IMG/VR virus record: IMGVR_UViG_3300023297_001499 | Coordinates: 1-22,348 of that record | Reading direction: 5' to 3' (one strand) | Source: a virus | DNA: 22,348 bases | In this document: positions 1,363-18,347 of the stretch, one piece after another | Layout: every line of letters begins with the position of its first letter | How positions within the stretch are numbered: the first letter of the stretch is position 1 | The notes under the pieces: model-generated | The model's database searches: none | Told to the model about the DNA's origin: nothing | Seen by the model: the letters and a program-made list of their open reading frames with translations, nothing else | Translations under genes and position numbers: made by a program

Positions 1363-2463
1363 TTATGCGTAGCTCGCGACCGAGTTGATGAGAACGATCT
1401 CGCAGCTCTTGCCCTCGGTCGGGCACTTACGAGCCGTCCAACCGAAGTCGTATTCGAGGTTCCCGACCCGGTTCGTGTTCTCGTTGGTGTTGGCCTTGCA
1501 CGAGTACGCCGTAATTGACAGTTGGTTCTTGTGGGCACCCTGGATGGTGTCGCCCTCGAGAACCGATTCTAGCTTGAAGTAGTCGCCCGCCTTGAATGTT
1601 TCCCAGTAGCTTTCGTCGTCGAACAGGATCGTCGCCCTGCCCGACAACTGGAAGAGGTCAACGCGGTAGGTTCCCAGATCGAGTCCCGAACCGCCTGTGA
1701 ACAGACCCTCCAGACCGGGGAATGCGAACTCGAAGTTGATTGCCGTCAGCACTTCGACGTTCACATCGTCGATCTGCGGCGATGCCGTGAGTTGCTTGAA
1801 GTGCCACGGGGTTTCGTCGGCAACGACCGGCGATGCGGTCATTACGGCCGGGCGCTCTTCACTGAGATCGTTGGTCGTGCCCGACCCCTTGCTGCCGGCG
1901 TCGGTGCCCAGCCAGATGATGTTCTTGGCCACGAACTCCGGCGTTATCATCGCAGGCCCGTTGTTCGGCAGGTCGATCGGCAGCCTGCGGCATATTGCCC
2001 CTCTGATCAGCTTCGAGCGGGTAGCCGCGAAGATCGACTCGATCGAGTAAGGCACAGGCCAGGCCGTGCGGGCGTTGAGTCCCGGCGACCAGGTGTGTTG
2101 CCACACGTCGGTATCCGTGTCCCCGCCGGAACTGGATTCCAACTGTGAGCTCGTTGGCGTGCCGAAGATCATTGTGAGGAAGTGCCCGATAGACTCAGGG
2201 CCCGGGATCATCCGCAAAGACCCCTCGTTCATCGACCCGTGTTCGATGACACGCGTGATCTCTCGGTCGGCGCCCATATCATCCATCTGGGACTCGGCGT
2301 TGAAGCCGGCCTGAACCGACTCCTCTTTGATCGGGAAGAACGTGATTCCGTCGACCACTTTGTCCGGGTCGGAGCCGCTGGTTGGTGTCGTACCCCACGT
2401 AGCTTCGCGGACGAGGCCGACAATGCTTTCAGATCCGCTCAATGCCGGTGTAGTTACAGTCAT
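1363..2463 (-). CDS. Major tail (tail tube) protein
   Basis: A 366-residue protein starting MTVTTPALSGSES, with the ATG at 2463 behind an AAAGGAAG ribosome binding site. The early motif GLVREATWGTTPT resembles the N-terminal region of many phage tail tube proteins. The rest is rich in beta-prone and Gly/Ser/Thr segments, including GLEGLFTGGSGLDLGTYRVDL in the middle and a C-terminal part with TARKCPTEGKSCEIV. The protein polymerises into the tube through which DNA is ejected. It sits between the terminator-like and chaperone genes, the standard place. No sheath gene lies beside it. Hairpins flank it on both sides, in keeping with high expression. At 366 residues it is longer than simple tube proteins (about 150-250) and may carry an extra surface domain. 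Confidence 0.75.
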   Translation of the reverse strand: MTVTTPALSGSESIVGLVREATWGTTPTSGSDPDKVVDGITFFPIKEESVQAGFNAESQMDDMGADREITRVIEHGSMNEGSLRMIPGPESIGHFLTMIFGTPTSSQLESSSGGDTDTDVWQHTWSPGLNARTAWPVPYSIESIFAATRSKLIRGAICRRLPIDLPNNGPAMITPEFVAKNIIWLGTDAGSKGSGTTNDLSEERPAVMTASPVVADETPWHFKQLTASPQIDDVNVEVLTAINFEFAFPGLEGLFTGGSGLDLGTYRVDLFQLSGRATILFDDESYWETFKAGDYFKLESVLEGDTIQGAHKNQLSITAYSCKANTNENTNRVGNLEYDFGWTARKCPTEGKSCEIVLINSVASYA

Positions 2464-2499: not shown

Positions 2500-3693
2500 C
2501 TATTTCCTACGGTAGCGGCGTTCCAGTCGGAATCGCCTGTCAGTAAGGTTGATCGACGCCGATTGCTCGGGCGTCAGTTCTCGAGGTATCCCCCGAGTGA
2601 ATCCGCCGGCCTTGGTTGTCACCTTCGGCGAATTGCCCCGCCAAACAACGACATCGACCGGTTCGACCTCGACCCGCTCCCGTGGGTTCACTTCTTCCAG
2701 AAATGACTTGATCCGCATTGCCGTGCGCTGATACGTCCAGTCATTCGCCACTCTCTTGGCCGCGTGCTTGCCCATCTCCGCGAGTTTGGCATGATTATCG
2801 AACGCCCACCTCATGCAGTAGCGCAGGCTCGCAATGGAAGGGCGCGCGAAGTGCCCGTCAATGTTGTTGTGGTAGTTCGGGCAACCTTCCAGTCCGTCGA
2901 TCGCAACGCGCAGGCAATCCGTATCGAGATAGTCCCGGCACCCGCCCCAGTCAGTCACGATCGCAGGTGTGCCGCACGCCATCGCTTCAAGCGGCGTGAG
3001 TCCAAACCCTTCGCCCCGAGACGGCATCACGAAGCAGTCGAGGCTCTGATAGAACCCGCGCATCGTGTCGGTGTCCACCTGTGCGCGTCGGGCATCTATC
3101 CGAGCGTCCTTTATCTTGAGCAACGCGGGAAGCGCGTTCGATGTCTGCACCATCAATCGCACATTTTCGCTGCCCGTAAACTCTTCCTGAAACGCCCGGA
3201 TCAGCAGATCGTAGCCTTTTCGCGTGCTCGCGGAACCCGCATAGCCGAAGACAAACGTGTTGTCCGTCGGGTCTGCATCCCGTGTGCGTGGAGGGTAGTA
3301 GTCCGCGGTGTCGACGCCCAGCGGTATGACCACAATCGGCGCCTCGCACCCGGACGCTATCAGGCTGTCCCGACAGAACTCCGAGGGAACCCAAACCTGG
3401 TTGGCGCAGTTACACGCCGCGACCCACTCGCCTGGCCATCGGTCGGCTTCGAACATCGTGTAGAGAATCCGATACGGACTCGGCAATCGCTCCAGAAACG
3501 ACAGGCTGATCGCCGCGTAACCGATGCCGACAGCGCACTTCTCCGCCTTGTCACCACACGTTGTTACGTCATGCGGTACAACGTCGTTTTGCAGCAGGTG
3601 GCGAACGATGTTCCGTGAACTCGATCCATAACCGCAGAACGGATTGTCGACCCCGATCCACGCTACGTGGGATTTGCCATCTCGTTTGAACAT
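2500..3693 (-). CDS. GT4-family glycosyltransferase with C-terminal extension
   Basis: A 397-residue GT-B fold glycosyltransferase. I chose the ATG at 3693 (MFKRDGKSHVAWIG), four bases after the TGA start of the preceding stop codon and with a GGAGG site 9 bases upstream. Residues 10-30 hold the glycine-rich N-terminal loop (NPFCGYGSSSRN), 121-128 VVIPLGVD, 150-160 the Rossmann strand of the nucleotide-sugar domain, and 228-236 the EGFGLTPLE motif with both glutamates of the EX7E signature. GT4 enzymes move a sugar from an NDP-sugar with retention. Residues 335-397 form a Lys/Arg-rich tail that ends the protein after the GT fold and contains GGFTRGIPRELTPEQ, similar to the module at the N-terminus of the GT4 at 13649-14959. 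It lies between tail terminator-like and tail tube genes, where no such enzyme is expected. Donor and acceptor are unknown. Confidence 0.88.
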   Translation of the reverse strand: MFKRDGKSHVAWIGVDNPFCGYGSSSRNIVRHLLQNDVVPHDVTTCGDKAEKCAVGIGYAAISLSFLERLPSPYRILYTMFEADRWPGEWVAACNCANQVWVPSEFCRDSLIASGCEAPIVVIPLGVDTADYYPPRTRDADPTDNTFVFGYAGSASTRKGYDLLIRAFQEEFTGSENVRLMVQTSNALPALLKIKDARIDARRAQVDTDTMRGFYQSLDCFVMPSRGEGFGLTPLEAMACGTPAIVTDWGGCRDYLDTDCLRVAIDGLEGCPNYHNNIDGHFARPSIASLRYCMRWAFDNHAKLAEMGKHAAKRVANDWTYQRTAMRIKSFLEEVNPRERVEVEPVDVVVWRGNSPKVTTKAGGFTRGIPRELTPEQSASINLTDRRFRLERRYRRK

Positions 3694-3694
3694 A

Positions 3695-4201
3695 TCACAA
3701 TGCCTCCGTTGCAATACTGACATCGCAACTCCAGAGCAGCTTGAAGTGCACGACCGTCCGATTGGTGTCTACGTCTGGTATGAACTCAGCTATCGGTTCC
3801 GCTGATTCGTCGTCGTCCGAGTAGTCCCAGCCGAACCGCCCCGCGCCCCACACGCCGTCGTCGGACGGGTAGTTGGCAAGCACTCGCTGGACGTTATTGC
3901 ATAGATTGGTGGCTTCGTCGAACGCCGCTTCCTGCGTGGTCTGCTCGGACGCCCCGGAGATCAGGAACATCAACCGTTCCTGCCGTCTCAGCCCCCCAGC
4001 CATATCAACAACCAGCCCCGCGCGCTGAAGCCGCACAAACACCATTGGCTTGTCGAGCATCGACGTGGGCATGAATTGGCCCTTGTGTATTCCGCGCAGT
4101 TCAACGCGCGTCAGATTCTCCGAGAGCGCATCGCCGACACCGCTTTCGGCATCGAGTATCGCGATAAGCCGATCCGTGACGGTCTTGTATTCCGTGCTCA
4201 T
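3695..4201 (-). CDS. Tail terminator / tail completion protein (lambda gpU-like by position)
   Basis: A 168-residue protein, MSTEYKTVTDRLIAILD, whose start overlaps the preceding stop as ATGA. A GGGAG site lies 6-7 bases upstream. The N-terminal helix with DRLIAILDAE, a middle with VFVRLQRAG and later a strand-rich half ending in VVHFKLLWSCDV fit the alpha/beta pattern of tail terminator proteins, which cap the tail tube and join it to the neck. Size (130-170) and gene order (adaptor, closure, gp10-like, terminator, tube) match. I did not recognise a diagnostic motif, so the call depends mainly on order. Confidence 0.55.
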   Translation of the reverse strand: MSTEYKTVTDRLIAILDAESGVGDALSENLTRVELRGIHKGQFMPTSMLDKPMVFVRLQRAGLVVDMAGGLRRQERLMFLISGASEQTTQEAAFDEATNLCNNVQRVLANYPSDDGVWGAGRFGWDYSDDDESAEPIAEFIPDVDTNRTVVHFKLLWSCDVSIATEAL

Positions 4202-4707
4202 AGTTGGCTCCCGATGAATGATTCGAGGTCCTTAACGATCGACGGGATCGACTCCATCATCGCCGACCCCAGAAACGCGCGCTTCGGCGGGGTGTGCACG
4301 CTGTTGGCGATGGTTTCCATCTCCGGGTCCTGCTCGTGGATCTCCGCGGGGAACGGGGCGCTCACGATTGTCTCGTGCTTGCCGCGTTCGTTATGGCTGA
4401 TCCTGCGGGACATCTGTGATGTGTCAATCAACGGCGCGTCGAACGGCAGGCCGACGGCGGGGCCGATTACTTGACGCGACTTCGCTAGTTGTGCTCGCGG
4501 TCCCCGCCGCCGTCTCTGCTTGCGCCTGACCGTGCTTGCGGCCAGTCTGGCCCAACCCTTTTGGTAGCTGCCTAGCTTCGCCTGTGCCTTGCGTTGGATG
4601 CGCACGCCCGCCCGCGGCATGAACTGCCCGATCAGTCCGCGAGTAGATTGAACGTAGTCGGGCATGCGGAACTCAACACCGTTTCCGCGGTATGTCTTTG
4701 TGAGCAT
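4198..4707 (-). CDS. HK97 gp10-like / virion morphogenesis neck protein
   Basis: A 169-residue basic protein. Its ATG follows directly after the TAG of the upstream gene, with no close ribosome binding site, so it probably depends on translational coupling. The segment LGSYQKGWARLAASTVRRKQ (about 45-65) matches the 'Y..GW..L..sT...K' pattern of phage tail completion and virion morphogenesis proteins, and the later HTPPKRAFLGSAM (about 137-150) matches their 'PaRpFLG' C-terminal pattern. APFPAEIHEQ corresponds to the usual Y/F-A-x-x-H element. Such proteins act at the head-tail joint. The Arg/Lys-rich stretch RRKQRRRRGPR (60-71) is unusually basic and may contact DNA. Confidence 0.65.
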   Translation of the reverse strand: MLTKTYRGNGVEFRMPDYVQSTRGLIGQFMPRAGVRIQRKAQAKLGSYQKGWARLAASTVRRKQRRRRGPRAQLAKSRQVIGPAVGLPFDAPLIDTSQMSRRISHNERGKHETIVSAPFPAEIHEQDPEMETIANSVHTPPKRAFLGSAMMESIPSIVKDLESFIGSQL

Positions 4708-5058
4708 CTAAATGAACGACTCCGTTTTTCTGATGCACAGATAACGTTCGGCCACTATCACGTTGTTCAACATCGGCGTGGACACCCGACGCACTATCCA
4801 GCTTTCGCCGGTTGTATTCACCTTGATTGTGCCACCCGCGACCATCACCCCTCCGGGAGAGGCTTCGAAGACAGCCCACGGCAACACGACCTCATCGGAA
4901 TAATCATCGCCCAGCGCGGTCTTGATCTGCTCGGGCGTCAGATCCTTAACCGAAAGCGTTTCCGTCCATTCGATCTCGCCGTTGCCAAGCGCGCATTCGC
5001 TGCCGAACTCCTCGCGCAACGCGTTCAATTCAGTTCTCAGGTCCGTTCCTATGCCCAT
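4708..5058 (-). CDS. Probable head closure (stopper) protein
   Basis: A 116-residue protein, MGIGTDLRTELNALREEFG. I chose the ATG at 5058, which overlaps the end of the PEP-CTERM gene by 10 bases; upstream codons in this frame lie inside that gene. A weak GTGGAAACG is the only binding site, so coupling is likely. After an N-terminal helix the protein is strand-rich, with VMVAGGTIKVNTTGESWIV and a terminal VIVAERYLCIRK. Size and position between adaptor and gp10-like genes fit a head-closure protein that plugs the portal after packaging. No firm family motif is visible; call by order only. Confidence 0.45.
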   Translation of the reverse strand: MGIGTDLRTELNALREEFGSECALGNGEIEWTETLSVKDLTPEQIKTALGDDYSDEVVLPWAVFEASPGGVMVAGGTIKVNTTGESWIVRRVSTPMLNNVIVAERYLCIRKTESFI

Positions 5059-5633
5059 CGTTTCCACGCACCGCACATCGCCGCAATACAGACCAGCAGA
5101 ACGGACATCGACGCCGGTTCCGGCACTGCAAGCGGGATCACCATAATGTTGTCGAGATACAGTCTGTCGTCCGCATCGTTCCAACAACCGACGTAGAGAG
5201 TTCCGTAGTCAGCAGTTTCGATATAGGCGGTGTAACCGGACCACGTGTCGTTGGGAGGCACCGTAAACTCGGCGAAGAACCCGGCAACTTCGTAGTAGAG
5301 GCTACTGGCCTGCTGCCCGTGTCCCGCGGCCATGGCGTAGATATCATAGGCGCCTGGCGGCAACACACAATCGTGCCAGATGTAGGTCGCCACGCGCGAG
5401 CTGCTGACAGCATCGCAAGTGATTACATACTGGCCGTCGACTCCCGCATTCCCCACAACGTCTATCGCCCACGCCGCGGGGATCACTTCCCAGTCCGGCA
5501 CGCAGACCGCGTTATGCCAACCCAGAGGCGCCAGGTATTCCCCGTGTTCCTCGAAGCTGCCGTTGACATCAAACGCAAAAGCCCCCGTGCTCAACACAAG
5601 AACCGCCATCACTAAAGCTACGAATCGTATCAT
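5049..5633 (-). CDS. Exported PEP-CTERM protein with signal peptide
   Basis: A 194-residue protein starting at the ATG at 5633, two bases after the adaptor stop and behind GGAGGAG. Residues 1-20 (MIRFVALVMAVLVLSTGAFA) are a clear signal peptide ending in A-x-A. The mature part begins with VNGSFEE, typical of galactose-binding-like or DUF642-like beta-sandwich exported proteins, and contains four cysteines. At the end comes VPEPASMS (170-177), a hydrophobic helix (178-189) and basic KRWA: the PEP-CTERM signal that exosortase recognises for sorting to the cell surface or extracellular polymer. Such proteins are normally chromosomal. Here it sits between adaptor and closure genes, tightly coupled to both. 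It is more likely a moron acting on the host surface than a virion part. Family of the mature domain is uncertain; the sorting signal is strong. Confidence 0.82.
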   Translation of the reverse strand: MIRFVALVMAVLVLSTGAFAFDVNGSFEEHGEYLAPLGWHNAVCVPDWEVIPAAWAIDVVGNAGVDGQYVITCDAVSSSRVATYIWHDCVLPPGAYDIYAMAAGHGQQASSLYYEVAGFFAEFTVPPNDTWSGYTAYIETADYGTLYVGCWNDADDRLYLDNIMVIPLAVPEPASMSVLLVCIAAMCGAWKRWA

Positions 5634-5635
5634 GC

Positions 5636-6352
5636 TCAACTCCTCCCCGCCGCCGCATAGCCGGCGTTGCATTTACCGATGAACCGGTCGCGCTGTTCGC
5701 GCCCGCGCTTTCTCCACACACCTATCTGCGAACCGAGATCCCGTTCGTATTCAGGGGTCTTGATCCGCACCGCCTGGCTCGATTTAGCCAACTCGTTCAC
5801 GACCCGCTCGGCCGCGCACGATTCCACGAGATCTAGGAAGATGTCGCGGTCTGTCGTCTTGACTTCCGTCACTGCCGACAGAACCTTGGTGTAGAGTATG
5901 TAGACCGTATCGCCGGCGGTTTCGGGCGTAGGGTTGAGGTAGACGTCGCCGCCCTCGATGTCGCGTTGATAGGCGTCCCCGCCGTAGTTCGCGCTCCAGG
6001 CAGATCCCTTGATGCTCTCAATGATTGCCTGTGACGGCAGGTGCCAGTAGCCGGCTTCTTGTGGAACACCAAGTGTCGCCAGTGTCCGCGCCAACGTCCA
6101 TTCGTCGCCGGACTGGTAGGGGCTCCAGAGCACGAGTATCGCCATCATTCCCGCGGAGTCCCCGATCTCCGACCAGGTATACTTCTGCTGGTTTGCGATC
6201 GTCTCGAATGTCCTGTCGGCGACCAGCGGCCGATAGCGCGAGTATTCGGTAAGAACCTCGGAGATGAGGCTCGTCAGTGCATCATCATCAAGTTCAGACG
6301 TGCTTATCCCGCGCGCTCGTATTCCGGTTATGTAGCTTGCAACATCAGCCAT
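5636..6352 (-). CDS. Head-tail adaptor (connector) protein
   Basis: A 238-residue protein, MADVASYITGIRARG, with an AGAGG site before the ATG at 6352. The N-terminal half has LDDDALTSLISEVLTEYSRYRP, the helical 'x..al..AL..Y' pattern of adaptor proteins (gp6/gp15-like); then a strand segment with QQKYTW; then GDVYLNPTPETAGDTVYILYTK; then a helical C-terminus with FLDLVESCAAERVVNEL. Adaptor proteins bind under the portal ring. The N-terminal and DIFLDLVE...AAERVVNELA helices resemble those of other adaptors. It is the first of the five neck/tail joint genes in order and is followed two bases later by the PEP-CTERM gene. Position and layout give moderate support. Confidence 0.6.
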   Translation of the reverse strand: MADVASYITGIRARGISTSELDDDALTSLISEVLTEYSRYRPLVADRTFETIANQQKYTWSEIGDSAGMMAILVLWSPYQSGDEWTLARTLATLGVPQEAGYWHLPSQAIIESIKGSAWSANYGGDAYQRDIEGGDVYLNPTPETAGDTVYILYTKVLSAVTEVKTTDRDIFLDLVESCAAERVVNELAKSSQAVRIKTPEYERDLGSQIGVWRKRGREQRDRFIGKCNAGYAAAGRS

Positions 6353-6737: not shown

Positions 6738-8384
6738 TTACTGGATTTTCAAGTTGAAGCGTGGGGCGCGAAACCCCTGCAACATTGCTTCCATGCGAGA
6801 CTGGTAGGTGAACTTATGGGCAAGAGCGTAAGCGGCATCTGCCTTTGCATTCAACTCGTCGGGATGGGACAGATAGTGACGGATCTTCTCTGCCGCTTCG
6901 TCAGCGCTGCCATACCACTCGACTTCACCGTTGAACGAACTGAGAGCACGGCGGTTGTCAATCAGAAGCAGGGCGCGATAGGCGGCTTCAACGTATCCGC
7001 GATTGACGCTGCCCGGCAAAATCGCTGGGAACCCTCCGCAATCCTCTTCCGTGCGATGAGATAACAGGATTATGCGAGACGCCATCCCAATGCGCGCAGT
7101 GGCTTCAGCATCAATAGTCGGAAACACGGTCGCGTCTCGAATGCGCTGTTTGTCCCAGGTGTCTCCAACGAGGGCCAGCCTTACATTCGGCAACTGTGCC
7201 CTAATTTGCCGGATCAGTTCCACTCTGCTCGGGTAGGGATAACCCACAAGGCATATATCATGCGTCTTCTCCGGCCGATTATCCCGACATAGCGCGTGCA
7301 CTGCGTTTGTTATGGACAGGCAGTTCCAGAGGTAGACTCGATCAGGGTCGCGGAAAACGTTCCTGTAGAACTTGTAAGCATTGGCGTCGTTGGTTACGAT
7401 CCAATCGAGCAGATCCAGCGCGTCGGCATTGGGAATCAATGCCTGCGGGTCTTCGATTAACAACCCGGCAATCGGTGCGCCTGTTGTCTCTCTGATTTGC
7501 CGGATCTGATTCCTGCTCCATCGAAAAAGCGGACCCAACAACAAAACTATCTCGGGCTGATGGTCTACAACTTCAACGAAAGGAATCGAACTTAGACCAT
7601 CGCGCACTCCGTCGGCCACTTGCTGCTGACTGACCGTCAGTTCCGGATGCGCAGGGACACTAATCTGCACGCGCATCTTTGGCGACTGCTGCTTGTCCTT
7701 TATCATCTGCGCGCACTCAAGCATCTTCAGTTCCATGCTTCGGAGCATTCGCTTCCCGGAATGCCAACGGTACCACGAAAGCGGCCTGTTCAAGAAACGA
7801 GCGGCACCCACACCGAGAATGCCGAAGAATCGAACGGTGTAATCCCAGTCTTCCTGGCTGACCATCCGCTCGTCGAAGTAACCGACCTTCTCAAGCGTTT
7901 CTCTGCGATACACGATCTCGCCACTGTCGATGAAGTTGTCCTTTCTCAGTGTGCGGATCTGGATCGGGTTCGGGATGTGTATCCCGGTATGGTCGCCAAA
8001 GTTCCTGCTACCCGATACGACGGCATACAACGCGGAGTCAGACTCAAAACAACGGATGGCTTCTTCGCAGAACGTGTCGCACTTGCGGTTGTCGTCATCA
8101 AGGGTGGCCCAGTAGCGCCCGTTCATCACATCAAGAGCTTCGTTCCAACATGCGGCTATGTTGTCGACGTTGCGGTCGTGGTAGATGACCCGAATCCGCG
8201 AGTCCTTTTCCGCTTCTCGGCAGATTCTTCGGGCCTCATTGTCGGGATCGCTGTTCTCGACAATGATGATTTCCCAGTCATCAATAGTCTGCTTGAAGAT
8301 GGAATCCAACGCTTCGGTCAGATACTTCGGCCTGTTATGACTGACAACTATGATTGAAACCGAGCACTGTCGTTCTTCCGGCAT
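6738..8384 (-). CDS. Two-domain glycosyltransferase (GT2 plus CgeB-like GT-B)
   Basis: A 548-residue fusion. Residues 1-225 are a GT-A fold GT2 domain: SVSIIVVSHNRPKYL at the N-terminus, VEN acidic site, LDDDN (95-99) as the DXD metal/nucleotide-binding motif and SQEDWDY (176-182) as the general base region. Residues 235-548 resemble the CgeB/spore-maturation glycosyltransferase group: VLLLGPLFRWS, a Rossmann VGYPYPSRVELIRQIR, and a C-terminal half with GYVEAAYRALLLIDNRR, EVEWYGSADEAAEKIRHYL and a closing HKFTYQSRMEAML, the Glyco_trans_1_2 pattern. Two active domains suggest that two sugars are added in sequence, as seen in polysaccharide or S-layer glycan loci. The ATG is 6 bases after the second radical SAM gene, behind GAGAGGG. 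Confidence 0.85.
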   Translation of the reverse strand: MPEERQCSVSIIVVSHNRPKYLTEALDSIFKQTIDDWEIIIVENSDPDNEARRICREAEKDSRIRVIYHDRNVDNIAACWNEALDVMNGRYWATLDDDNRKCDTFCEEAIRCFESDSALYAVVSGSRNFGDHTGIHIPNPIQIRTLRKDNFIDSGEIVYRRETLEKVGYFDERMVSQEDWDYTVRFFGILGVGAARFLNRPLSWYRWHSGKRMLRSMELKMLECAQMIKDKQQSPKMRVQISVPAHPELTVSQQQVADGVRDGLSSIPFVEVVDHQPEIVLLLGPLFRWSRNQIRQIRETTGAPIAGLLIEDPQALIPNADALDLLDWIVTNDANAYKFYRNVFRDPDRVYLWNCLSITNAVHALCRDNRPEKTHDICLVGYPYPSRVELIRQIRAQLPNVRLALVGDTWDKQRIRDATVFPTIDAEATARIGMASRIILLSHRTEEDCGGFPAILPGSVNRGYVEAAYRALLLIDNRRALSSFNGEVEWYGSADEAAEKIRHYLSHPDELNAKADAAYALAHKFTYQSRMEAMLQGFRAPRFNLKIQ

Positions 8385-8390
8385 ACGCGC

Positions 8391-9704
8391 CTACCCTCTC
8401 CCTCTATATTCTCTCAGTGGCGAGGTGTAGTTGGCACACCAATCAGCCGCCCGGCTGAATACATACTCGTAGTCCACGCCCTTGATCTTGCGATCGTAAG
8501 GATAGGGGCCGACCCCGTAATGACCATCCGGGGCGCCGACATCCGTAGCCCAGTAGTTATTCGCGCGAACCCAGTCATAGAGGTGCGCGCCCGGATACGA
8601 GGTGTAGACCGACCGCGCGTGGTATTCCGGCTTGATCTCGGCCAGCATTCGTTCTGTAGCATCCAGATCGGCCGTAGTCTCGGTCGGCAGTCCGATGATG
8701 TAGTTGCCGAAAATGTTGACATCGCTTGCGTGCAAGAGAGCGCTCGCTTCGATGTTCTGCTCGACCGTTGTGCCCTTTTTTAGAAAGTCGAGCATTCGTT
8801 GGGAACCGGACTCCAGTCCAAGACTGACCCACGTGAACCCAATTTCTGCCATCTCGGGGATCAGTTCGCCAAGACGCAGGATGTTGTCTGCCCGCAACTG
8901 ACACCAGAACGGTATTCGCGGAAGTCGTTCTTTCCACAACTCGACGAACTCTTGCATCCAGCGCCGCGACCCGAATAGATCATCGTGGATCATCAGGCTG
9001 CCGATGCCGCCCGGACGCGAGTTGAGCAGACATATTTCCTCAATGACGTGCTTGGCACTGCGTATCCGCACACGCTTCCCAGAGATCAATTCTCTGCTCG
9101 GAGCGCAGAACGTGCACTTCCCCGGGCATCCTCTGCCTGCCACCAGAGTCACGAACGGTTCGGGAAGCAGGGGAAGGATAGGGGACGTCTCTTCCATTCG
9201 TGGATTAAAGAAGCCCCGGTCCACAAACGGCAATGAGTCGAGATCTTCCACGGCTTTCAATTCGTAGACGGTTTCCAGAGATCCGCCGGCGTCAATGGTA
9301 TTGGCGATATCGAGTATCCGCTCCTCGCCCTCGCCCCACACGATGCAGTCGATGTTCGGGTATTCCCGCGCTTGAGTCACCGATAGGTGGATGCCGCCAC
9401 CAATGAGCGGTTTGTTCGGCGCGCATCGCTTGACGATCTCAGCAGCACGCCGTGCGTGAGCATCATCACACGTAAGCCAACTCATCATGCTCCAGTCGTA
9501 GTCGGCTTTCTTGACCACATCCTCGAATTGATCCCAACTGGAGAACGATCGCAAGTCCACCAAGAACGGGTCATGCCCCGCGCGCTTCAAGACGGCGGAC
9601 AGCATAGCAAACCCGTGATTGATGTAAGTAGAATCACTGCCGCCGTGCTCGTTGTATGACGACCAGCCGCTCATCAATGCGGGGTAAACACAGAGTATCC
9701 TCAC
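8391..9704 (-). CDS. Radical SAM enzyme with B12-binding-like N-terminus (BchE-like)
   Basis: A 437-residue protein. I chose a GTG start at 9704-9702, which overlaps the upstream TGA as GTGA and has AGAGG 7 bases before it; longer reading in this frame lies inside the previous gene. Residues 1-140 follow the cobalamin-binding layout of B12 radical SAM proteins (RILCVYPAL, GFAMLSAVLKRAGH, PLIGGGIHLS, VWGEGE). GRGCPGKCTFCA (190-201) has the CxxxCxxC cluster that binds 4Fe-4S and SAM, at C193, C197 and C200. Later SLGLESGSQRMLDFLKKG and GNYIIGLPTET are typical of the barrel. Members often methylate or rearrange sugars, lipids or tetrapyrroles. The substrate is unknown; neighbours suggest a glycan or lipid-linked sugar. 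Confidence 0.88.
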   Translation of the reverse strand: MRILCVYPALMSGWSSYNEHGGSDSTYINHGFAMLSAVLKRAGHDPFLVDLRSFSSWDQFEDVVKKADYDWSMMSWLTCDDAHARRAAEIVKRCAPNKPLIGGGIHLSVTQAREYPNIDCIVWGEGEERILDIANTIDAGGSLETVYELKAVEDLDSLPFVDRGFFNPRMEETSPILPLLPEPFVTLVAGRGCPGKCTFCAPSRELISGKRVRIRSAKHVIEEICLLNSRPGGIGSLMIHDDLFGSRRWMQEFVELWKERLPRIPFWCQLRADNILRLGELIPEMAEIGFTWVSLGLESGSQRMLDFLKKGTTVEQNIEASALLHASDVNIFGNYIIGLPTETTADLDATERMLAEIKPEYHARSVYTSYPGAHLYDWVRANNYWATDVGAPDGHYGVGPYPYDRKIKGVDYEYVFSRAADWCANYTSPLREYRGRG

Positions 9705-11167
9705 GGTGACACCTCTTTGGCCTGCCTGTCCGATGTGATCTGCTGCCATGTCGCCGCGCCAGAACCAGCAGCGACAGGAGGAGGGTCTGCCAGGATCTCT
9801 TGCAGCAACCCCACCATCAGTATGCCGGTCGTGCCCTTGAACGAGTGAGACGGCGCATGCTTGTCTCGATATGCCGGCCACATTCGGTTGAATGCCAGCA
9901 TGATCGCGCGGACTTGAAGATCGTCCGGCAGAATGACGGTTGGCTGCTTGATCTTGAGGTCTGTGCCCTCGATCTCCGTCACGCACCAGCCGAACTCGTG
10001 CGCTGATTCGTAGAGAGGAGCGCCGCGGTAAGGCATCGTGTAGGGTTCCACCGATATAGTCGCGCCCATCCGCGCCCACTCAAGAACAGCACTCACGTTT
10101 TCCTGCAAGTCGGCAACGGTCGCGCTCGGTGCGAACAGGATGATGAGCAGATATGGCGTGATCCTGTTGTCCTCGCACCACCAGATGATATCGGGTATGC
10201 GCGCCAGGTCTTGCGGCTTATTGAAGCTCGCCAGCACATTCTTGCTTGCGTTCTCGATCCCCAGCGTCAGATGCCTTGCGCCGCCCCGGGCCAGCGTGCG
10301 AACCAGATCCAAGTCAACCCTTGAACTATGGGTCTGCACGAGGTAGGACAACCCGAGTGACGCCGACTTCTCGCAGAAGTGTTCGACCCGTTCTCGAGAG
10401 TGGCAGAAATCATCTTCGCAGAAGTATATCGTCTCGGTTTCCGGCACCTCGCGCTTCACGCGTGCACACAGACTCAATAGCTGCTCGGCATTTAGCATCG
10501 CAGGCTTCGTCAGGCGCCCAACGGCCAATCGCTGCCACTGAGTCACGCTGCAAAACGCACATCCGCGGTTACAGTGCGTGCTCGTAACGAGACGGACGGT
10601 CCGTATATCCCGGTAGTTGGGCTTCGCATACAATCTGGCGGTCTGTTGCCAGTAGTCTTCGTAGCCCATAACGGAGAAGTCGAGTTGTTCGTAGAAGTCC
10701 CAAAGATCGGAGTTGAGCGTCGGGTTATTCCACCGTCGGTAGATGATTCCTGGTATATCCTCCGGCGCCTCTCCCTGCACAATGCCGGCAAGTGCACGTT
10801 CGCCCGTCCCCAACACGACCCACTGCACTGGTGACTTGTCAAGGATCTCCTGGTAGTTCAGGGTCGCTTCCACGCCGCCGACAACCAAGTCGGCGCCGGG
10901 GTTGGCGCGGCTGGCCTGGTTTATCAGCGCAATGTCCGACGCCAGTGTTTCCGAAAGAGGCGAGAACCCGATAGTCGTGCGGTGTTCGAATAGATCGTCG
11001 CCCGGCATGCCATCCTTGCAGGGATCGTGCACGTCTACTCGTATACCGGGTATTTCTGCGCGAAGCCACGCCGCGAGCCTGTGCAACCCGATGTGTGGCG
11101 CGCTCCAGTTCGCAACCGAACTTGTCTTCTTGCTGGGGCCGACCAAAAGGACGTTATGAGGACACAT
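9701..11167 (-). CDS. Radical SAM enzyme with B12-binding-like N-terminus
   Basis: A 488-residue protein with the ATG at 11167, overlapping the end of the GT2 gene by 14 bases. Residues 1-130 have the layout of a cobalamin-binding domain (HNVLLVGPSKK, IGLHRLAAWLR, LVVGGVEATLN, VLGTGE), though no DxHxxG motif is seen. THCNRGCAFCSV (197-208) holds the CxxxCxxC cluster (C199, C203, C206). HLTLGIENASKNVL and LLIILFAPSAT are typical later barrel segments. It is distinct from the next gene (8391-9704), not a simple duplicate: spacing and motifs differ. Two adjacent enzymes of this class suggest two steps of sugar or lipid modification. B12 dependence would make this pathway rely on the host's cofactor supply. 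Confidence 0.87.
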   Translation of the reverse strand: MCPHNVLLVGPSKKTSSVANWSAPHIGLHRLAAWLRAEIPGIRVDVHDPCKDGMPGDDLFEHRTTIGFSPLSETLASDIALINQASRANPGADLVVGGVEATLNYQEILDKSPVQWVVLGTGERALAGIVQGEAPEDIPGIIYRRWNNPTLNSDLWDFYEQLDFSVMGYEDYWQQTARLYAKPNYRDIRTVRLVTSTHCNRGCAFCSVTQWQRLAVGRLTKPAMLNAEQLLSLCARVKREVPETETIYFCEDDFCHSRERVEHFCEKSASLGLSYLVQTHSSRVDLDLVRTLARGGARHLTLGIENASKNVLASFNKPQDLARIPDIIWWCEDNRITPYLLIILFAPSATVADLQENVSAVLEWARMGATISVEPYTMPYRGAPLYESAHEFGWCVTEIEGTDLKIKQPTVILPDDLQVRAIMLAFNRMWPAYRDKHAPSHSFKGTTGILMVGLLQEILADPPPVAAGSGAATWQQITSDRQAKEVSP

Positions 11168-12668
11168 GATAACGCACCCCCAGAAGTTCGCTTGCGCCTC
11201 TGACGACAGCTTCGGCCTTGTCTATGACCGTATCCGCATCGCCGACCACTGTCACGGGCGAGCCAGTCAGAGACACGATCTCGTAATCTTCGGGTGCGCG
11301 TTGACGCCGAACGGCGGCTTGTCCAAGGAACGAGGCTGCCTCATTGTCATCCTCGGTGCAAGCCAGATAATACGCCCGCTTTGCCTGTATCGGACCGGCG
11401 ACTCCAACAGTCTCCCATCCGGTTGCTACGAGGGTGTCGGCCCTCTGCAATCTGTCTATCCGCCCGGAACCAAACAGAGCGTCCGTGGGCGGAGTACGCC
11501 CTTCGAACGTGTGCACGGTAGTCTTCTGGCCGCAGGACACCAGCCGGTTGGCGATCAACATTACCAGCCTGCATCGCTCGGAATCATCATAGCGTGGTAA
11601 TAGGAACCTGACGGTTTCTTCAGCACACCGATCAACGACGTCGCCCCAGCGTTCACGGAACACCCCTTCGCCCTTTGTCGTTTCTGTTTGAGCCCACGCA
11701 GCAGTGCGCGCAGATGACTTCCGCACCCCGTTGTCGATGTGCGTCACGACACAACCCGGAACATACCAGACTTCCCAGCCATGCAGCATCGCACGGAAAC
11801 AGAAATCGGTGTCCTCGTTCCCGAAGACGTATGCCGTATCAAAGCCCCGCAGTTCCTCATACACGGAACGACGAAGCGCAAACACCGCGCCCGTCACGGC
11901 CGGGACCAGTTCGTAATCGCCCGCATCCACAGCAGATAGTTCAGCACGCTTGTAGCGATGAATCCCACAGGAACCCTTCGGGAACTCCAACCCTACGTGC
12001 TGGATCTTTCCATCCGGGTAGAGCAGTTTGGCTCCCGCGACCCCACATTGAGGCCGTAATTGCATCCAACTCATCAACGCCGTCAGCCACCCGGCATCGC
12101 ACACCTCGCAATCTTGATTGAAAAGCACGTAGTGGCTCGCATCTGCACACTCGATCCCCCGGTTGACCGCAGCGGCAAAGCCCATCCGCTTGTCCAGTCT
12201 CAATACTCTGCCTGGCGCGTCTTTCAGGAGGGCTCGTGTGGCATCGTTGGTGCTGCCATTGTCCACCCACACGAAGACGACGTTGCCCGCGTAGGATGTC
12301 TTTCTGAGCCCGTCGATACATCTACTTAACAGATCCGGGCAGTTATAAACAGGAACGACGACAGCGACAGAAGGCCAAGTGCCCACATTCCGGTAAGCTA
12401 CGCTCCGCGCTGGAATGCGATAACCGTAGGCCAGTCCCCCGCAACGAACCTCTGTGTCACTCTGGCAACCTGTCTGATAGCCGGCATTGTCCGCAATCAG
12501 CCGTTCGGCCAAACTCGACGGAATCGGCGTGTATTGATCGGCCGGCAGCGTATAGACCCCGTGCACCTGTGTTCGCCCGGTCATGTTCAACACAGGAACC
12601 ATTGCCTCGGTTGCCGTTGGCTGCTTTGCCTTGCGCATCCTACTACGCCTTCGAATCGCGTTTACCAT
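11154..12668 (-). CDS. GT2 glycosyltransferase with N-terminal module and C-terminal Rossmann-like domain
   Basis: A 504-residue protein whose ATG overlaps the stop of the Rmd-like gene as TGATG. A basic start (1-22) precedes the module at 23-67 (MVPVLNMTGRTQVHG then ...LAERL). Residues 98-345 are a GT-A domain: SVAVVVPVYN, WVDNGSTND, FNQDCEV (183-189; the DXD equivalent), GFDTAYVFGNEDTDFCFRA (275-293, with the conserved E-D). This layout is that of rhamnosyltransferase-like GT2 enzymes. Residues 365-504 carry another alpha/beta segment with ADTLVATGWETVGVAG and AKRAYYLACTEDD, similar to the N-terminal Rossmann half of WsaF-like rhamnosyltransferases. The donor half seems missing, so this may bind the acceptor. 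With the Rmd-like gene beside it, a D-rhamnose donor is plausible but not shown. Confidence 0.85.
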   Translation of the reverse strand: MVNAIRRRSRMRKAKQPTATEAMVPVLNMTGRTQVHGVYTLPADQYTPIPSSLAERLIADNAGYQTGCQSDTEVRCGGLAYGYRIPARSVAYRNVGTWPSVAVVVPVYNCPDLLSRCIDGLRKTSYAGNVVFVWVDNGSTNDATRALLKDAPGRVLRLDKRMGFAAAVNRGIECADASHYVLFNQDCEVCDAGWLTALMSWMQLRPQCGVAGAKLLYPDGKIQHVGLEFPKGSCGIHRYKRAELSAVDAGDYELVPAVTGAVFALRRSVYEELRGFDTAYVFGNEDTDFCFRAMLHGWEVWYVPGCVVTHIDNGVRKSSARTAAWAQTETTKGEGVFRERWGDVVDRCAEETVRFLLPRYDDSERCRLVMLIANRLVSCGQKTTVHTFEGRTPPTDALFGSGRIDRLQRADTLVATGWETVGVAGPIQAKRAYYLACTEDDNEAASFLGQAAVRRQRAPEDYEIVSLTGSPVTVVGDADTVIDKAEAVVRGASELLGVRYHVSS

Positions 12669-13648
12669 CAGTCTCGATCGACCTCCGTAATCTGCCAGCC
12701 GACCATTTCTTTGATCGTGTCCTCGATCTTAAATCGCGGTTCCCAGTCGATTGCAATGCGGAGTTTCGAGGCATCGCCGATAAGCGTGGGGACATCGGAC
12801 GGCCGCATCTTGTCCGCGTCACGATTGATCTTGGCTTCTGGGATCGAAGCGCACTCTGATGCAATCGTCACGATTCGGCTGATCGGGCAACCCTTGCCAC
12901 TACAGATGTTAAACACATCGCCGTTCTTGATAACGCCCTCGTTATGCGCCTCCACGAGAAGTCGGTAGGCACGAACGGTGTCCCTGACATCTGTATAATC
13001 CCGAACCGCTCCCGTGTTGCCAAGGGAATACTGCTCTCGCTTCCCGAGCACTATTTCCGCGGTCTGACGCGCAATTGCCGCTTCGACGAAAGCCAACCCA
13101 CGACCCACGCCCGTATGATTAAACGCTCGCGTCCGCACAACACTCATGCCGAACGACTGCGCATACTGATAACCCAACAGATCCGCCGCGATTTTCGAGA
13201 CGCCATAGGGCGACCTCGGTCGAAGCGGGTTGGATTCGGTAATCGGGATCTCCGCCTCGTGCACCAGCCCGTATTCCTCGCTGGAACCGCACACGTGCAC
13301 AACGCAGTCGGGCACGTGCCGCTTCGCCATCTCCAACACGTTCAGTGTGCCGTTCAGGTTAGTACGTAGTGTCGCTTCCGGCTCGTGCCAACTGGCCGGG
13401 ACAAACGACTGAGCCGCCAGATTGAAGATCGCATCCGGTTGCGACTCTAGGATCGTCGCCGATACACTGAGCACGTCCGTCACATCGCCCGGGATGCAAT
13501 GGACGCCCTTGCGCTTCAGTCGATCGACAACTGCATCGTTCGACCGCACCCGCGTTAGCGCGCAGACCTGATAATCGCCGGAGTTCAGTAGTTCGTCAAT
13601 GAGGTATTGCCCTACAAACCCGGTCGCTCCCGTTACAAGAACCCGCAT
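12668..13648 (-). CDS. rmd: GDP-6-deoxy-D-mannose reductase-like (Rmd-type SDR)
   Basis: A 326-residue extended SDR enzyme. Start ATG at 13648 directly follows the upstream TAG, with GGGAGGGG behind it. GATGFVG (7-13) binds NAD(P); NLAAQS is the usual following strand; CGSSEEYG and YGVSK carry the Ser and Tyr-x3-Lys of the active site; RAFNHTGVGRG and RPSDVPTLIGDASKL near the C-terminus are particularly close to Rmd, more so than to Gmd. Rmd reduces GDP-4-keto-6-deoxy-D-mannose to GDP-D-rhamnose. Its substrate must come from Gmd, which is not in this window, so host or another phage region would supply it. A related 4,6-dehydratase or epimerase activity cannot be ruled out. Both neighbours are glycosyltransferases joined to it by coupled starts. 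Confidence 0.82.
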   Translation of the reverse strand: MRVLVTGATGFVGQYLIDELLNSGDYQVCALTRVRSNDAVVDRLKRKGVHCIPGDVTDVLSVSATILESQPDAIFNLAAQSFVPASWHEPEATLRTNLNGTLNVLEMAKRHVPDCVVHVCGSSEEYGLVHEAEIPITESNPLRPRSPYGVSKIAADLLGYQYAQSFGMSVVRTRAFNHTGVGRGLAFVEAAIARQTAEIVLGKREQYSLGNTGAVRDYTDVRDTVRAYRLLVEAHNEGVIKNGDVFNICSGKGCPISRIVTIASECASIPEAKINRDADKMRPSDVPTLIGDASKLRIAIDWEPRFKIEDTIKEMVGWQITEVDRD

Positions 13649-14959
13649 CTATGCCCCTCCCGCATCATTCATCACGACCCGCAACAGCGACTCGCACGTT
13701 CGTTTGACTGTCCACTGCTCGCGCACCCACTTCGCCGCGGCAAGCCCAGTCTTTCGCGCGCTCTCCCTCTTCTCGTAAACCTGCCGATAGCGGGCAACCA
13801 GTTCATCGAAGTTGGGCTCCCACCAGTTTCCGACATCGCCCCAGTCTGGGGGGTAGCCGCCTTTGGAAACGTGCGGCACTTTCGTTTCGAAGCACGACAC
13901 CGGATAGTTGTAGCGCGGGTCGCAATACTCGCTCATCCCGGAGTTGTTGCTCACGATCACCGGCAGGCCCGTGGACATTGCCTGCAACGGTGTCAGTCCG
14001 AACCCCTCGCCGCGCGAGGGGAACACGAACGCGTCGGCGTCGTGCATCCACTGCACCATCTGCGCGGGCGTCGATTCCTCGGCCACAAATCGAATCCGAT
14101 CATCGGACGGCAGGCGTTTGTTCCAGTCCCAGAACCCGCCCGAAGTCTGTTCACCCCGTGTCTTCAACACGAATCGCACGTCCGGATACTGCGCACGTGG
14201 AAACGCGGCTACAAATGCCCTTGCCGCTCCCACGGGGTTCTTGCGATGCGTGAGTCCGGCCGCCATCAGGAACGTGAAATATGGCCGATACTCCGTTCGC
14301 TTGAGTTCCGGAACCGGCCACTTGTCGGGATCTACGCCCAGACACACGACATCGATTGGGGTAGTAACCCCCTGCCTCTCGAACGCCTCTTTGTTCTGGC
14401 GACACGGCACGATTATCCGCCGGCACTTGTTCATCTCGATCGACCATGCCGCCGGGGGCGTGGTAGTCTCGAACATCGTCAGTCCGATCCCGCGCAGGAA
14501 CGGATGATGGTGGATGTCCCGAGGCCAGGTCATGTTGATTCCGTAGCAGCACTCGGGCTGTTGCGGTCGGCGCAGGCATTCGACGATCGCTTTCGGCACG
14601 AACGCTCTCTCGCTCCATTGGTCGAGAGGAATCCCGCCGAACTGCGGCTTGCCGGGGTCGTAGTCTCGCGTGTAGATCGAGAGATTGACGCCGGATTCGA
14701 TCAGAGTCCGCGCGATCTCCTGCGCAACACTGCCGTAGCCGTCACAGTAGTGGAACGGACTGCTCCACCCAAGAAATATGTGTCCGCCGTCTTCCAGGAA
14801 CAGAAAGTCCTCGGCCAGATCGTTGCTGTCGATGCGGTAGTCGGGATTTGTCGCCAACTGCCGCGCCAACGCTCGCGGGACTTCCGTCCATTCGCCCGGC
14901 CGCAGGTAGTGATGCCCAAACACCTGCGGGACACGAGTAAGGTTCAAAACCGGTATCAT
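13649..14959 (-). CDS. GT4-family glycosyltransferase with N-terminal module
   Basis: A 436-residue protein, ATG at 14959 behind GGGAG. Residues 1-44 are the module (MIPVLNLTRVPQVFG, LRPGEWTEVPRALARQL). The GT-B fold follows: GWSSPFHYCDGYGSVAQ (64-80), IDVVCLGVDPDKWP (202-215), a donor-domain Rossmann start at 228-240, and EGFGLTPLQ (318-326). The EX7E motif has Gln at 326 where the family normally has Glu; the related enzyme at 2500-3693 keeps both glutamates. The fold is clear, but activity may be reduced or changed. It opens the accessory cassette right after the capsid gene, separated from it by two hairpins, and the module at its start matches those in proteins just upstream of the capsid gene. 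Confidence 0.86.
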   Translation of the reverse strand: MIPVLNLTRVPQVFGHHYLRPGEWTEVPRALARQLATNPDYRIDSNDLAEDFLFLEDGGHIFLGWSSPFHYCDGYGSVAQEIARTLIESGVNLSIYTRDYDPGKPQFGGIPLDQWSERAFVPKAIVECLRRPQQPECCYGINMTWPRDIHHHPFLRGIGLTMFETTTPPAAWSIEMNKCRRIIVPCRQNKEAFERQGVTTPIDVVCLGVDPDKWPVPELKRTEYRPYFTFLMAAGLTHRKNPVGAARAFVAAFPRAQYPDVRFVLKTRGEQTSGGFWDWNKRLPSDDRIRFVAEESTPAQMVQWMHDADAFVFPSRGEGFGLTPLQAMSTGLPVIVSNNSGMSEYCDPRYNYPVSCFETKVPHVSKGGYPPDWGDVGNWWEPNFDELVARYRQVYEKRESARKTGLAAAKWVREQWTVKRTCESLLRVVMNDAGGA

Positions 14960-15037: not shown

Positions 15038-15058
15038 GATCCGTCTGTTCTACGGATC
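15038..15058 (-). other. Hairpin across capsid stop codon
   Basis: GATCCGT and ACGGATC form a perfect 7-bp stem with a 7-base loop; the 5' arm and loop hold the capsid TAG stop (15052-15050). The following bases are not U-rich. It is the first of two hairpins between the capsid gene and the accessory cassette; both together may lower read-through into it. Confidence 0.5.
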
Positions 15059-16759
15059 TGAGCCGGCCACACCAGGCTGCATCGTGACGGTCGCGAAATA
15101 CTTACCGTCAAGCATCTGATGCGCGACCTCGCTCTGGAGGGATTGCTCGACATCCTGTGTGCCGGGGTCGATCCAGATCGGAGTCACGAACAGACCGAGA
15201 TACGGCGCAATGACGTAGCCCGTCTGCGGCCACTGCTTACCCTTGGCGCCGACCAGCAAGGTGTTTGTCTGGAGGCTGTCCCACCAGCCGACCTTGACCA
15301 GCCGCTCGCCAGTGCTCAGAGAACCGGCGATGTCGATTCCCTCGGCGACTCGCCCCTGGCCATCGCCCTTGTAGTCGCCGGCGGCCTGAGCCAGCCAAAC
15401 GATGCGATCGATCGAATCCGGGTCACCGATGATCCACACCGTGTCCGCGAACCTCGACTTGTAGATCAGGTTGCGGGCTTTCTTGATGTGGGTGATGATC
15501 TGCTTCTGCCACTGCTCGCCGTCGTAGTTCCCGGTAGCGGGCGGCAGAGTGCCGTAGTTGACGTTGCCGGCGGTCGCGCCGCTGACCATCTCCGCGAGAA
15601 TGTTGTAGTTCCATTCCCGCGCAACCTGGTCGGCGCACGCGGAGATCATCGTGCCGGTGCCGTCGATGCCGAAGTCGGAGTGCAGGTGCCGCATCACCTC
15701 GACCGACAGGTCGTAACCGAGCTTTTTGATGAGGCAGGTGACATTGGTCGAAGTCAAGCTGCCCTTGAGCCGCTTGATCTCTTCCTTCTCACCCGGGTCG
15801 TTGGCATACGAGCCAGTGAAGTTCGCGACGGCCGACATATCGGCGTCGTCCTCGTCGGTGATCTTCCAGTGGTAGACGCGGCCGGTCGACTGCTTCAACG
15901 GCTGAAGCGTTCCGAGTTGGGTCGCGATCAACTGCGGGAAGATGTCGACCATCAGCGGCATCACATACGGGATCGCCGCCGCGACGTCGCCGGTCGTGGT
16001 GGCGCCGGTGGGAATCGCCTGTCCCCTCGCGCCCTGCCGCAGCACGGACATCCGGTCGCGGCTGAACTGCTCGGCATCCTCGACTCTCTTCATCATGCCG
16101 TTGCGCATCATCAGCCACGCATCGGCCAGTTCCGGCTTCTCCTTGACGAAGTTCTGGAGCATGATCCGCATGCACAGACGCGTGTCGGAGAAGTCGGGAA
16201 GAGCGCCGGGCACCCACGAGCTATTCCCCTCGTGCAGTATTCCGCGTTCGGTCGCCGACTGGATCAATTCCTCGACGGCCGCTTCGTAACTCTGCGGGGC
16301 GTCCACCGAAGTACCGTCGTCCTTGTACTCCGGGGTATACATCCCCTTGCTCGCAAGGCGAGCGTGACTATCGAGGAACGGCTGTATCGACTGCCGCAGC
16401 GCCGGCATCACCGCCTCGATCCCCTCGTCCGTAGCGCACATGTTCTGCAACATCGTCCGAGCGGAGTCACTGAACTGCTCGGGCAGTTCCTTGTCCGTTA
16501 CCATCTGCGCGATCCGTGCGCTCACAGCGGCGTTGCGCTTCTGAACCAGTTCACGCGACGCGTCTCTGTCGATGATCGCCTGCGCCTGCGCCGTTACTCC
16601 ACGGGCCTGATCGAGCACTGCCCGATCATCGTCCGTCAGTCCCGCGGGCGCCGCCACGGGCGCCGCCTGCGGCAATACCTGCGGTGGCGTCGCCGTTCCA
16701 TCCGGGCCGCCGCCATCGACATCGGCGTTCTGCTTGTTTGTGACCTCATCGGGGTCCAT
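15050..16759 (-). CDS. Internal-start product: scaffold plus major capsid
   Basis: An in-frame ATG at 16759 (residue 378 of the fusion, MDPDEVTNKQ) has AAAGGAGA 5-6 bases upstream, as good as any gene start in the window. Translation from it would give 569 residues: a Pro/Ala/Gly-rich start, a helical scaffold-like region (to about residue 240 of this product) and the HK97-fold capsid domain. This would allow many capsid copies per protease copy, a problem a plain fusion does not solve. Internal scaffold starts are known in lambda (C/Nu3), where both products end together. No experimental evidence is available here. Confidence 0.65.
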   Translation of the reverse strand: MDPDEVTNKQNADVDGGGPDGTATPPQVLPQAAPVAAPAGLTDDDRAVLDQARGVTAQAQAIIDRDASRELVQKRNAAVSARIAQMVTDKELPEQFSDSARTMLQNMCATDEGIEAVMPALRQSIQPFLDSHARLASKGMYTPEYKDDGTSVDAPQSYEAAVEELIQSATERGILHEGNSSWVPGALPDFSDTRLCMRIMLQNFVKEKPELADAWLMMRNGMMKRVEDAEQFSRDRMSVLRQGARGQAIPTGATTTGDVAAAIPYVMPLMVDIFPQLIATQLGTLQPLKQSTGRVYHWKITDEDDADMSAVANFTGSYANDPGEKEEIKRLKGSLTSTNVTCLIKKLGYDLSVEVMRHLHSDFGIDGTGTMISACADQVAREWNYNILAEMVSGATAGNVNYGTLPPATGNYDGEQWQKQIITHIKKARNLIYKSRFADTVWIIGDPDSIDRIVWLAQAAGDYKGDGQGRVAEGIDIAGSLSTGERLVKVGWWDSLQTNTLLVGAKGKQWPQTGYVIAPYLGLFVTPIWIDPGTQDVEQSLQSEVAHQMLDGKYFATVTMQPGVAGSDP

Positions 16760-17890: not shown

Positions 17891-17906
17891 ATCGGCCTCC
17901 TGTCGA

Positions 17907-18347
17907 TCAGAGTGCAGCTCCTTCACCTGTCATCGCGCGCACTTCTTCTGCGGCCGCCATATCCGTTGCGACCTTGTTGACCGCCGCCACATGCGTGTCC
18001 GCCAGGTGCAGAACCAGACCTTCGGCCTGTTCGAATACCTCCTGGCAGAACGGGCATTGATATTGCTTCGTCGGTTGCGAAGAGTCGTATTGTACCGGTG
18101 CCGGTACGCGCCCTTCGAGCATGTCCAGTCCGGGAGTTTCGCTCGCAATTTCAAGCACGCCCGTTTGCACCAGCCGTTCGCCCAGTGTGCCCTTGGCGCA
18201 GTCAATCACGTCCGACGCGCCGGGCCGCAGCATCCCCCGCCCGACGCTTTGGGGAACGCGGGTTACGTTTTGAACCATCTTCAAGACCGGTTCGTGCTCG
18301 GGTTTTTCTTCCTTTTGCTTTCGTTTCTTGTCGGCTAGTCCCACCAT
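17907..18347 (-). CDS. Small module protein with C2H2 zinc finger
   Basis: A 146-residue protein. ATG at 18347 with a perfect AGGAGGT site upstream; longer in-frame starts lie in the gene before. Residues 1-20 are Lys/Glu-rich. Residues 21-67 hold the module (VLKMVQNVTRVPQSVG, MLRPGASDVIDCAKGTLGERL). Residues 96-120 contain a C2H2 zinc finger: C98, C101, H114, H119 (C-x2-C-x12-H-x4-H, with F105 and L111 as core positions). The end is a short Ala/Glu-rich helix. Zinc fingers of this type occur in phage and archaeal regulators; here, between portal and protease-capsid genes, a virion or assembly role is as likely. I cannot assign a known family. Confidence 0.75.
   Translation of the reverse strand: MVGLADKKRKQKEEKPEHEPVLKMVQNVTRVPQSVGRGMLRPGASDVIDCAKGTLGERLVQTGVLEIASETPGLDMLEGRVPAPVQYDSSQPTKQYQCPFCQEVFEQAEGLVLHLADTHVAAVNKVATDMAAAEEVRAMTGEGAAL

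Follow-up and report, generated by a model that had tools for sequence, protein, structure and literature searches.

The window analyzed here, a whole virus record of 22,348 bases, contains a gene for an exported protein, P0001, that is placed between virion genes and carries the two tags of PEP-CTERM proteins, an N-terminal signal peptide and a C-terminal sorting tail. The open reading frame, both tags, the tight fit into the virion operon, the absence of an exosortase gene from the available sequence of this phage, and the recurrence of PEP-CTERM genes beside packaging and portal genes in unrelated phages are the observed basis for viewing P0001 as a phage cargo ("moron") protein that would be made late and displayed on the host via the host exosortase pathway, not destined for the virion. 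The odds for this reading appear to be about even. Slightly more tentative is its generalization, according to which many phages of exosortase-bearing Gram-negative bacteria may encode PEP-CTERM proteins, often in packaging or head operons, and use host sorting to redecorate the cell, a convergent, undescribed strategy of which P0001 would be one divergent example. The sorting tag itself is known; as far as could be checked, nobody has described phages using it repeatedly in late operons. A search of the open-access literature (subscription journals were outside its scope) turned up no publication on PEP-CTERM proteins encoded by phages, and the one lead treats PEP-CTERM proteins and prophage separately.

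The P0001 gene and its sorting tags

The P0001 gene (positions 5049..5633, minus strand) extends from the ATG at 5633 to a stop codon that ends at 5049. Its 194-residue translation matches Pfam family PF07589 (18.3 or 22.1 bits, see below) and no other family. The preliminary description of this DNA had listed the frame, with its signal peptide and PEP tail, without giving a strand; it is real and is encoded on the minus strand. Residues 1-20 form the signal peptide MIRFVALVMAVLVLSTGAFA (5574..5633, minus strand), which is of type I, judging from its sequence and a positive n/h/c-region rule; cleavage is predicted between AFA and F, and the mature protein starts with FDVNGSFEE. The C-terminal sorting tail AVPEPASMSVLLVCIAAMCGAWKRWA (5052..5129, minus strand) covers the PF07589 match, which spans positions 5058-5129 in the genome search and residues 169-192 in hmmscan. 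The tail VPEPASMSVLLVCIAAMCGAWKRWA, beginning at residue 169/170, has the organization VPEPASMSV-helix-KRWA, in which the PEP motif, the hydrophobic stretch, and the basic end are all present, the last of these in a weak form with two basic residues (KR only). A hydropathy scan revealed no further hydrophobic or transmembrane segment between the signal peptide and the tail.

The body of the protein is soluble and acidic, with a net charge of −18, no Lys, and 1.4% Arg. In PEP-CTERM proteins, the body is poor in basic residues, very low in Cys, and enriched in Ser, Thr, and Asn (PMC1569441). The acidic, Lys-free body of P0001 fits the first of these trends; in contrast to typical representatives, it has more Cys (2.7%) and shows no Ser/Thr enrichment (4.7% each).

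In the hmmscan of the protein, P0001 scored 18.3 bits against PF07589 (E value of 0.0025), under the cut-off of 20.7, whereas the genome search of the window with the Pfam PEP-CTERM model gave 22.1 bits, over the same cut-off. The NCBIfam model TIGR02595 did not report P0001, and three control PEP-CTERM proteins scored 26 to 28 bits with it. We therefore call P0001 a predicted divergent PEP-CTERM protein, whose formal class membership is borderline (Pfam in one of two scorings, TIGR02595 negative). The frequency of such tags was assessed in control open reading frames of at least 60 amino acids from 158 unrelated phage loci (2.08 Mb). A signal-peptide-like N terminus was found in 802 of the 10,475 frames, a tail combining PEP motif, helix, and basic end in 3, and both features in none. 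Similarly, none of 50 unrelated phage records had a Pfam PEP-CTERM match above the cut-off. These controls make a chance motif unlikely as the origin of the P0001 tags. A recent foreign import of the gene was rejected on its GC content (0.581) and GC3 (0.692), which match those of the neighboring genes; neither base composition nor codon usage is distinct.

The body had no match in Pfam, NCBIfam, PHROGs, or PDB, and the AlphaFold model, built from the single sequence without an alignment, had a pLDDT of 36.7, too low for use. The VNGSFEE and LYLDNI motifs are, we assume, suggestive of a galactose-binding-like or CBM jelly-roll protein, and the body is probably beta-rich. No relatives of the body were detected in viral contigs, species genomes, cultured phages, plasmids, or PDB; the contig scans used exact 8-residue patterns, which can miss distant relatives. 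No relatives of the adaptor encoded upstream were found in viral contigs either. Relatives found with the terminase are only 27 to 35% identical and those found with the major capsid protein (MCP) 21 to 26%; none of them has a recognizable homologue of P0001 or of any neck gene. By these comparisons, the phage itself is isolated, with terminase and head relatives at no more than 35% identity and none sharing the neck genes. The suggestion that P0001 points to the host group holds only in a loose sense: the bacteria from which PEP-CTERM proteins are known possess an outer membrane and genes for exopolysaccharide (PMC1569441).

Placement in the head-tail gene run

The gene upstream of P0001 (5636..6352, minus strand) encodes an SU10_adaptor-like head-tail adaptor (PF24175, 24.9 bits, E value of 3.2e-5, just under the cut-off of 27). 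Its stop codon, at 5638-5636, lies 2 nt ahead of the P0001 ATG, and the Shine-Dalgarno-like sequence GGGGAGGAG that precedes this ATG (5640..5648, minus strand) is within the end of the adaptor gene. The downstream gene (4708..5058, minus strand), known from its translation as a 116-aa product without a family match, has its ATG at 5058, and its first 10 nt are the last 10 nt of the P0001 gene. The coordinates thus confirm the earlier reading of a start two bases after the adaptor gene and a 10-base overlap with the next gene. Of the two neighbors named at that time, the adaptor is backed by the near-threshold match, and the "closure" identity of the 116-aa product has only its position behind it. 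Further along the run are a tail completion/Neck1 protein (4198..4707; phrog_222, E value of 3.1e-8), a 168-aa product in the tail-terminator position with no Pfam or PHROG match (3695..4201), a GT4 glycosyltransferase within the tail genes (2500..3723; PF13692, E value of 7e-19), and the tail tube protein (1363..2463; PF18906, E value of 1.3e-14; phrog_290, E value of 1.4e-15), all on the minus strand. With the SU10-type adaptor upstream, Neck1 two genes downstream, and the tail tube beyond, the data support the proposal that an exported protein of PEP-CTERM type is encoded among the head-tail genes. No local sigma-70 promoter was detected on the minus strand near the P0001 gene.

From the right end of the window, the order on the minus strand is terminase, portal, a protease-head fusion, a glycan/radical-SAM cassette, and the head-tail and tail genes. 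The large terminase subunit (21315..22346, minus strand; phrog_2, E value of 3e-15) has its 5′ end beyond the window and is complete at L003:4984-6612; the portal protein follows (19191..20687, minus strand; phrog_213, E value of 1.2e-22). The protease-major head protein fusion (15050..17926, minus strand; phrog_138, E value of 1e-15; phrog_207, E value of 8e-9) is a single 958-aa open reading frame that combines regions of two kinds, one of a head maturation protease and one of a T4-like major head protein. The cassette, defined by Pfam matches, occupies 6738..14959 on the minus strand between the head gene and the adaptor and includes a GT2 (6738-8384), two B12-radical SAM proteins with B12-binding domains (8391-9878 and 9701-11167), a second GT2 (11154-12668), a GDP-mannose dehydratase-like protein (12668-13648), and a GT4 (13649-14959), all on the same strand.

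Two virus records from two metagenomes overlap the window. The 52-kb record G002 (L003) is 100% identical to it over 14.5 kb and ends at window position 7818, and the 23-kb record G001 (L002) is 100% identical over 11.0 kb and ends at 11312; the P0001-bearing stretch is therefore backed by the window record alone. Both records break within the glycan cassette, which is possibly a variable region. G002 adds tyrosine integrases, UvrD and DnaB helicases, a beta clamp, a GHMP sugar kinase, and a nucleotidyltransferase. Glycan genes, identified by Pfam matches, thus accompany the PEP-CTERM-type gene in this phage: the window encodes four glycosyltransferases (one of them inside the tail run), the GDP-mannose dehydratase-like protein, and two B12-radical SAMs, which, with the GHMP kinase and nucleotidyltransferase, amount to a large predicted surface/glycan tool set. 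The exosortase family PF09721 had no match in the window and the two overlapping phage contigs.

PEP-CTERM genes in other viral contigs

A DNA pattern for VPEPA[ST]M, scanned across all 2.9 million viral contigs, matched 18 stretches, ∼13 of which encode genuine PEP-CTERM proteins; 9 of the 10 proteins tested pass the Pfam cut-off. A PEP-CTERM consensus compared with the cultured-phage collection gave no match, a negative that carries no weight because low-complexity sequence is filtered out in such a comparison. A second pattern, VPEPA[ST]xAxxG, matched at least 120 viral-contig stretches. Among the matches listed for it, a proper tail was seen in 78 of the 81 inspected and a recognizable signal peptide in 66 of the 81, and several others are truncated where the stretch ends. 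Some of the IMG/VR contigs represent proviruses flanked by host DNA, so that not each match is a phage gene, but many of the matched genes are clearly phage-borne.

In L177, L192, and L194-L197, the PEP-CTERM gene lies directly ahead of a portal gene, within 200 nt; the two portals scanned beside such genes match phrog_156 with E values of 1e-122 or better. The gene at L260:1910-2545 sits exactly between, and on the same strand as, the genes for terminase and an HK97-type portal, and in L185/L190 the PEP-CTERM gene is found between the terminase and head-protease genes. It also adjoins the portal in L235 and L238 and the terminase in L210, L205, and L238, and it is next to virion or tail proteins in L179, L198, and L227. 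Overall, a head or tail marker was present within 3 kb of the PEP-CTERM gene in at least 24 of the 133 fetched stretches, a count made with 16 markers only and on short stretches. The check proposed in the preliminary description, a search for PEP-CTERM proteins near virion genes of other phages, was accordingly positive in unrelated phages, with portal, terminase, and head genes as neighbors. No exosortase was found in the 41 other PEP-carrying phage records, which makes 0 of 44 phage records including those of this phage, so that sorting would depend on the exosortase of the host.

One body family, A4, recurs in 45 viral loci (L194-L238), identified by body homology to the seeds L177:2767-3501, L192:7035-7769, L183:9649-10377, and L178:1686-2429. 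Practically all complete members have a signal peptide and a PEP-type tail, which reads PET in L210 and L211. Close pairs have dN/dS values of about 0.11 to 0.3, i.e., the family is under purifying selection, which indicates that this phage PEP-CTERM class is kept for use. A4 had only one marginal match in PHROGs, and the patterns used revealed no relatives in species genomes; the family is also absent from the cultured-phage collection. Its distant match to the NCBIfam model floc_PepA (NF033554; E value of 5e-11, below the model's cut-off) suggests that A4 probably derives from host surface proteins. AlphaFold predicts a 190-aa all-beta fold (pLDDT of 93.5), in which Foldseek recognizes a beta sandwich whose similarity to carbohydrate-binding and jelly-roll domains (TM values of <0.5) is too weak for an assignment. 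Like P0001, A4 proteins are phage-borne and combine a signal peptide with a PEP tail, and several members adjoin portal or terminase genes; unlike P0001, they have canonical tails and the 190-aa beta fold. Membership of P0001 in A4 was rejected: in BLASTP and phmmer comparisons with L177, L192, L178, and L183, only the tail of L183b matched P0001, and the bodies are unrelated.

Proposed mechanism and alternative explanations

If P0001 is displayed on the host surface, it would be made late alongside the adaptor and neck proteins, with probable translational coupling, and its signal peptide would direct export by the Sec pathway. The PEP-CTERM tail would then retain P0001 in the inner membrane, pending recognition of the PEP motif by the host exosortase; the enzyme would remove the tail and pass the acidic body to the outer surface or the exopolysaccharide layer. 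Such surface transfer by exosortase has been proposed for cellular PEP-CTERM proteins (PMC1569441), whose roles include floc formation and motility/biofilm (PMC9850573, PMC9012009, PMC12188702). At the surface, P0001 could act with the phage glycosyltransferases and the products of nucleotide-sugar genes to alter it. The benefit is the least certain step, most plausibly hindered re-adsorption or superinfection, or else a changed host polymer or aggregation.

Because the tail of P0001 is weak, the strongest rival is that the protein is exported without being sorted by exosortase, its helix serving as an inner-membrane anchor with the body facing the periplasm, where it would block DNA entry of other phages or act at lysis, and the PEP motif being an ancestral relic. 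The divergent tail (TIGR02595 negative, Pfam borderline), its weak basic end, the unproven presence of an exosortase in the host, and the Cys-containing body, which would suit the periplasm, all speak for this version. However, the VPEPASMSV core matches a motif that many canonical PEP-CTERM proteins have in exact form, and unrelated phages combine canonical tails with similar gene surroundings; an unsorted anchor is considered unlikely. Somewhat less likely again is a host PEP-CTERM gene acquired by chance recombination and carried with no benefit to the phage. P0001 lacks relatives in other phages, such hosts have many PEP-CTERM genes (PMC1569441), and the surroundings are rich in cargo genes, all of which would agree with a passenger. 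Yet there is no compositional sign of recent import, the frame is intact, has its own Shine-Dalgarno sequence, and is fitted to its neighbors at both start and stop, and the comparable phage family A4 is under purifying selection.

The location between adaptor and neck genes and the frequent occurrence of jelly-roll-like domains in virions could also suggest that P0001 is a neck or decoration component of the virion and only resembles an exported protein. This is very improbable, because the signal peptide would take P0001 out of the cytoplasm, where heads are assembled; the terminal membrane helix and PEP motif likewise argue against it. An assembly chimera or host contamination comes to mind because the overlapping contigs stop at window positions 7818 and 11312, leaving the P0001 stretch in this record only. 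With a gene that is spaced 2 nt from one phage gene, overlaps the next of the same run by 10 nt, and has the same composition as they do, and with 14.5 kb and 11.0 kb of the remaining window identical in contigs from two metagenomes, an artifact is the least probable of these explanations, bordering on negligible.

Comparison with known systems

Host-sorted display of P0001 would resemble several known systems. With the substrates of the PEP-CTERM/exosortase (EpsH) system (PF07589, TIGR02595; Haft et al. 2006, PMC1569441), P0001 shares the signal peptide, unique body, PEP motif, hydrophobic stretch, and basic end; as is typical of these substrates (PMC1569441), it has no family match outside the tail. 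Unlike them, it is encoded by a phage, inside a virion operon, with the exosortase not in the phage, and its tail is divergent, with a helix that is not glycine-rich and only KR at the basic end. The PEP-CTERM proteins involved in activated-sludge flocculation (PMC9850573, PMC9012009) are likewise exported and act with exopolysaccharide at the cell surface, but they are products of cellular genes with a proven floc phenotype and have no sequence relation to P0001. Superinfection-exclusion proteins of prophages, such as SieA of P22 (PMC10883804), offer an analogy only, as phage-encoded envelope proteins that could change the entry of other phages. SieA acts from the prophage, whereas P0001 is encoded among virion genes and bears a tag for sorting by the host.

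Cells are known to use the PEP-CTERM/exosortase pathway for sorting proteins of biofilms, flocs, and exopolysaccharide. If its substrates are routinely encoded in the late operons of phages, the host surface and aggregation state could be rewritten by phages through a host enzyme, which would link phage infection to floc and biofilm behavior, e.g., in activated sludge. A phage PEP-CTERM gene would then be a genomic marker for a host with an exosortase and an outer membrane, and surface exclusion would become a testable mechanism.

Additional observations on gene content

A sigma-70 region 2-like protein is encoded at window positions 20671-21387, between the terminase and portal genes and overlapping both; a sigma-like gene also immediately precedes the PEP-CTERM gene of L177. 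The phage seems to carry two DnaN-like beta-clamp genes on opposite strands, L004:16077-17666(−) and L005:6716-7849(+), with a Pfam basis for the second only. Phage PEP-CTERM genes are often followed directly by another gene for an exported protein, which is often of PEP-CTERM type as well (L200-L202, L209, L212, L213, L215, L218, L221, and L231), and the same paired arrangement is seen at L183:9649-11138 and L189:2565-3988.
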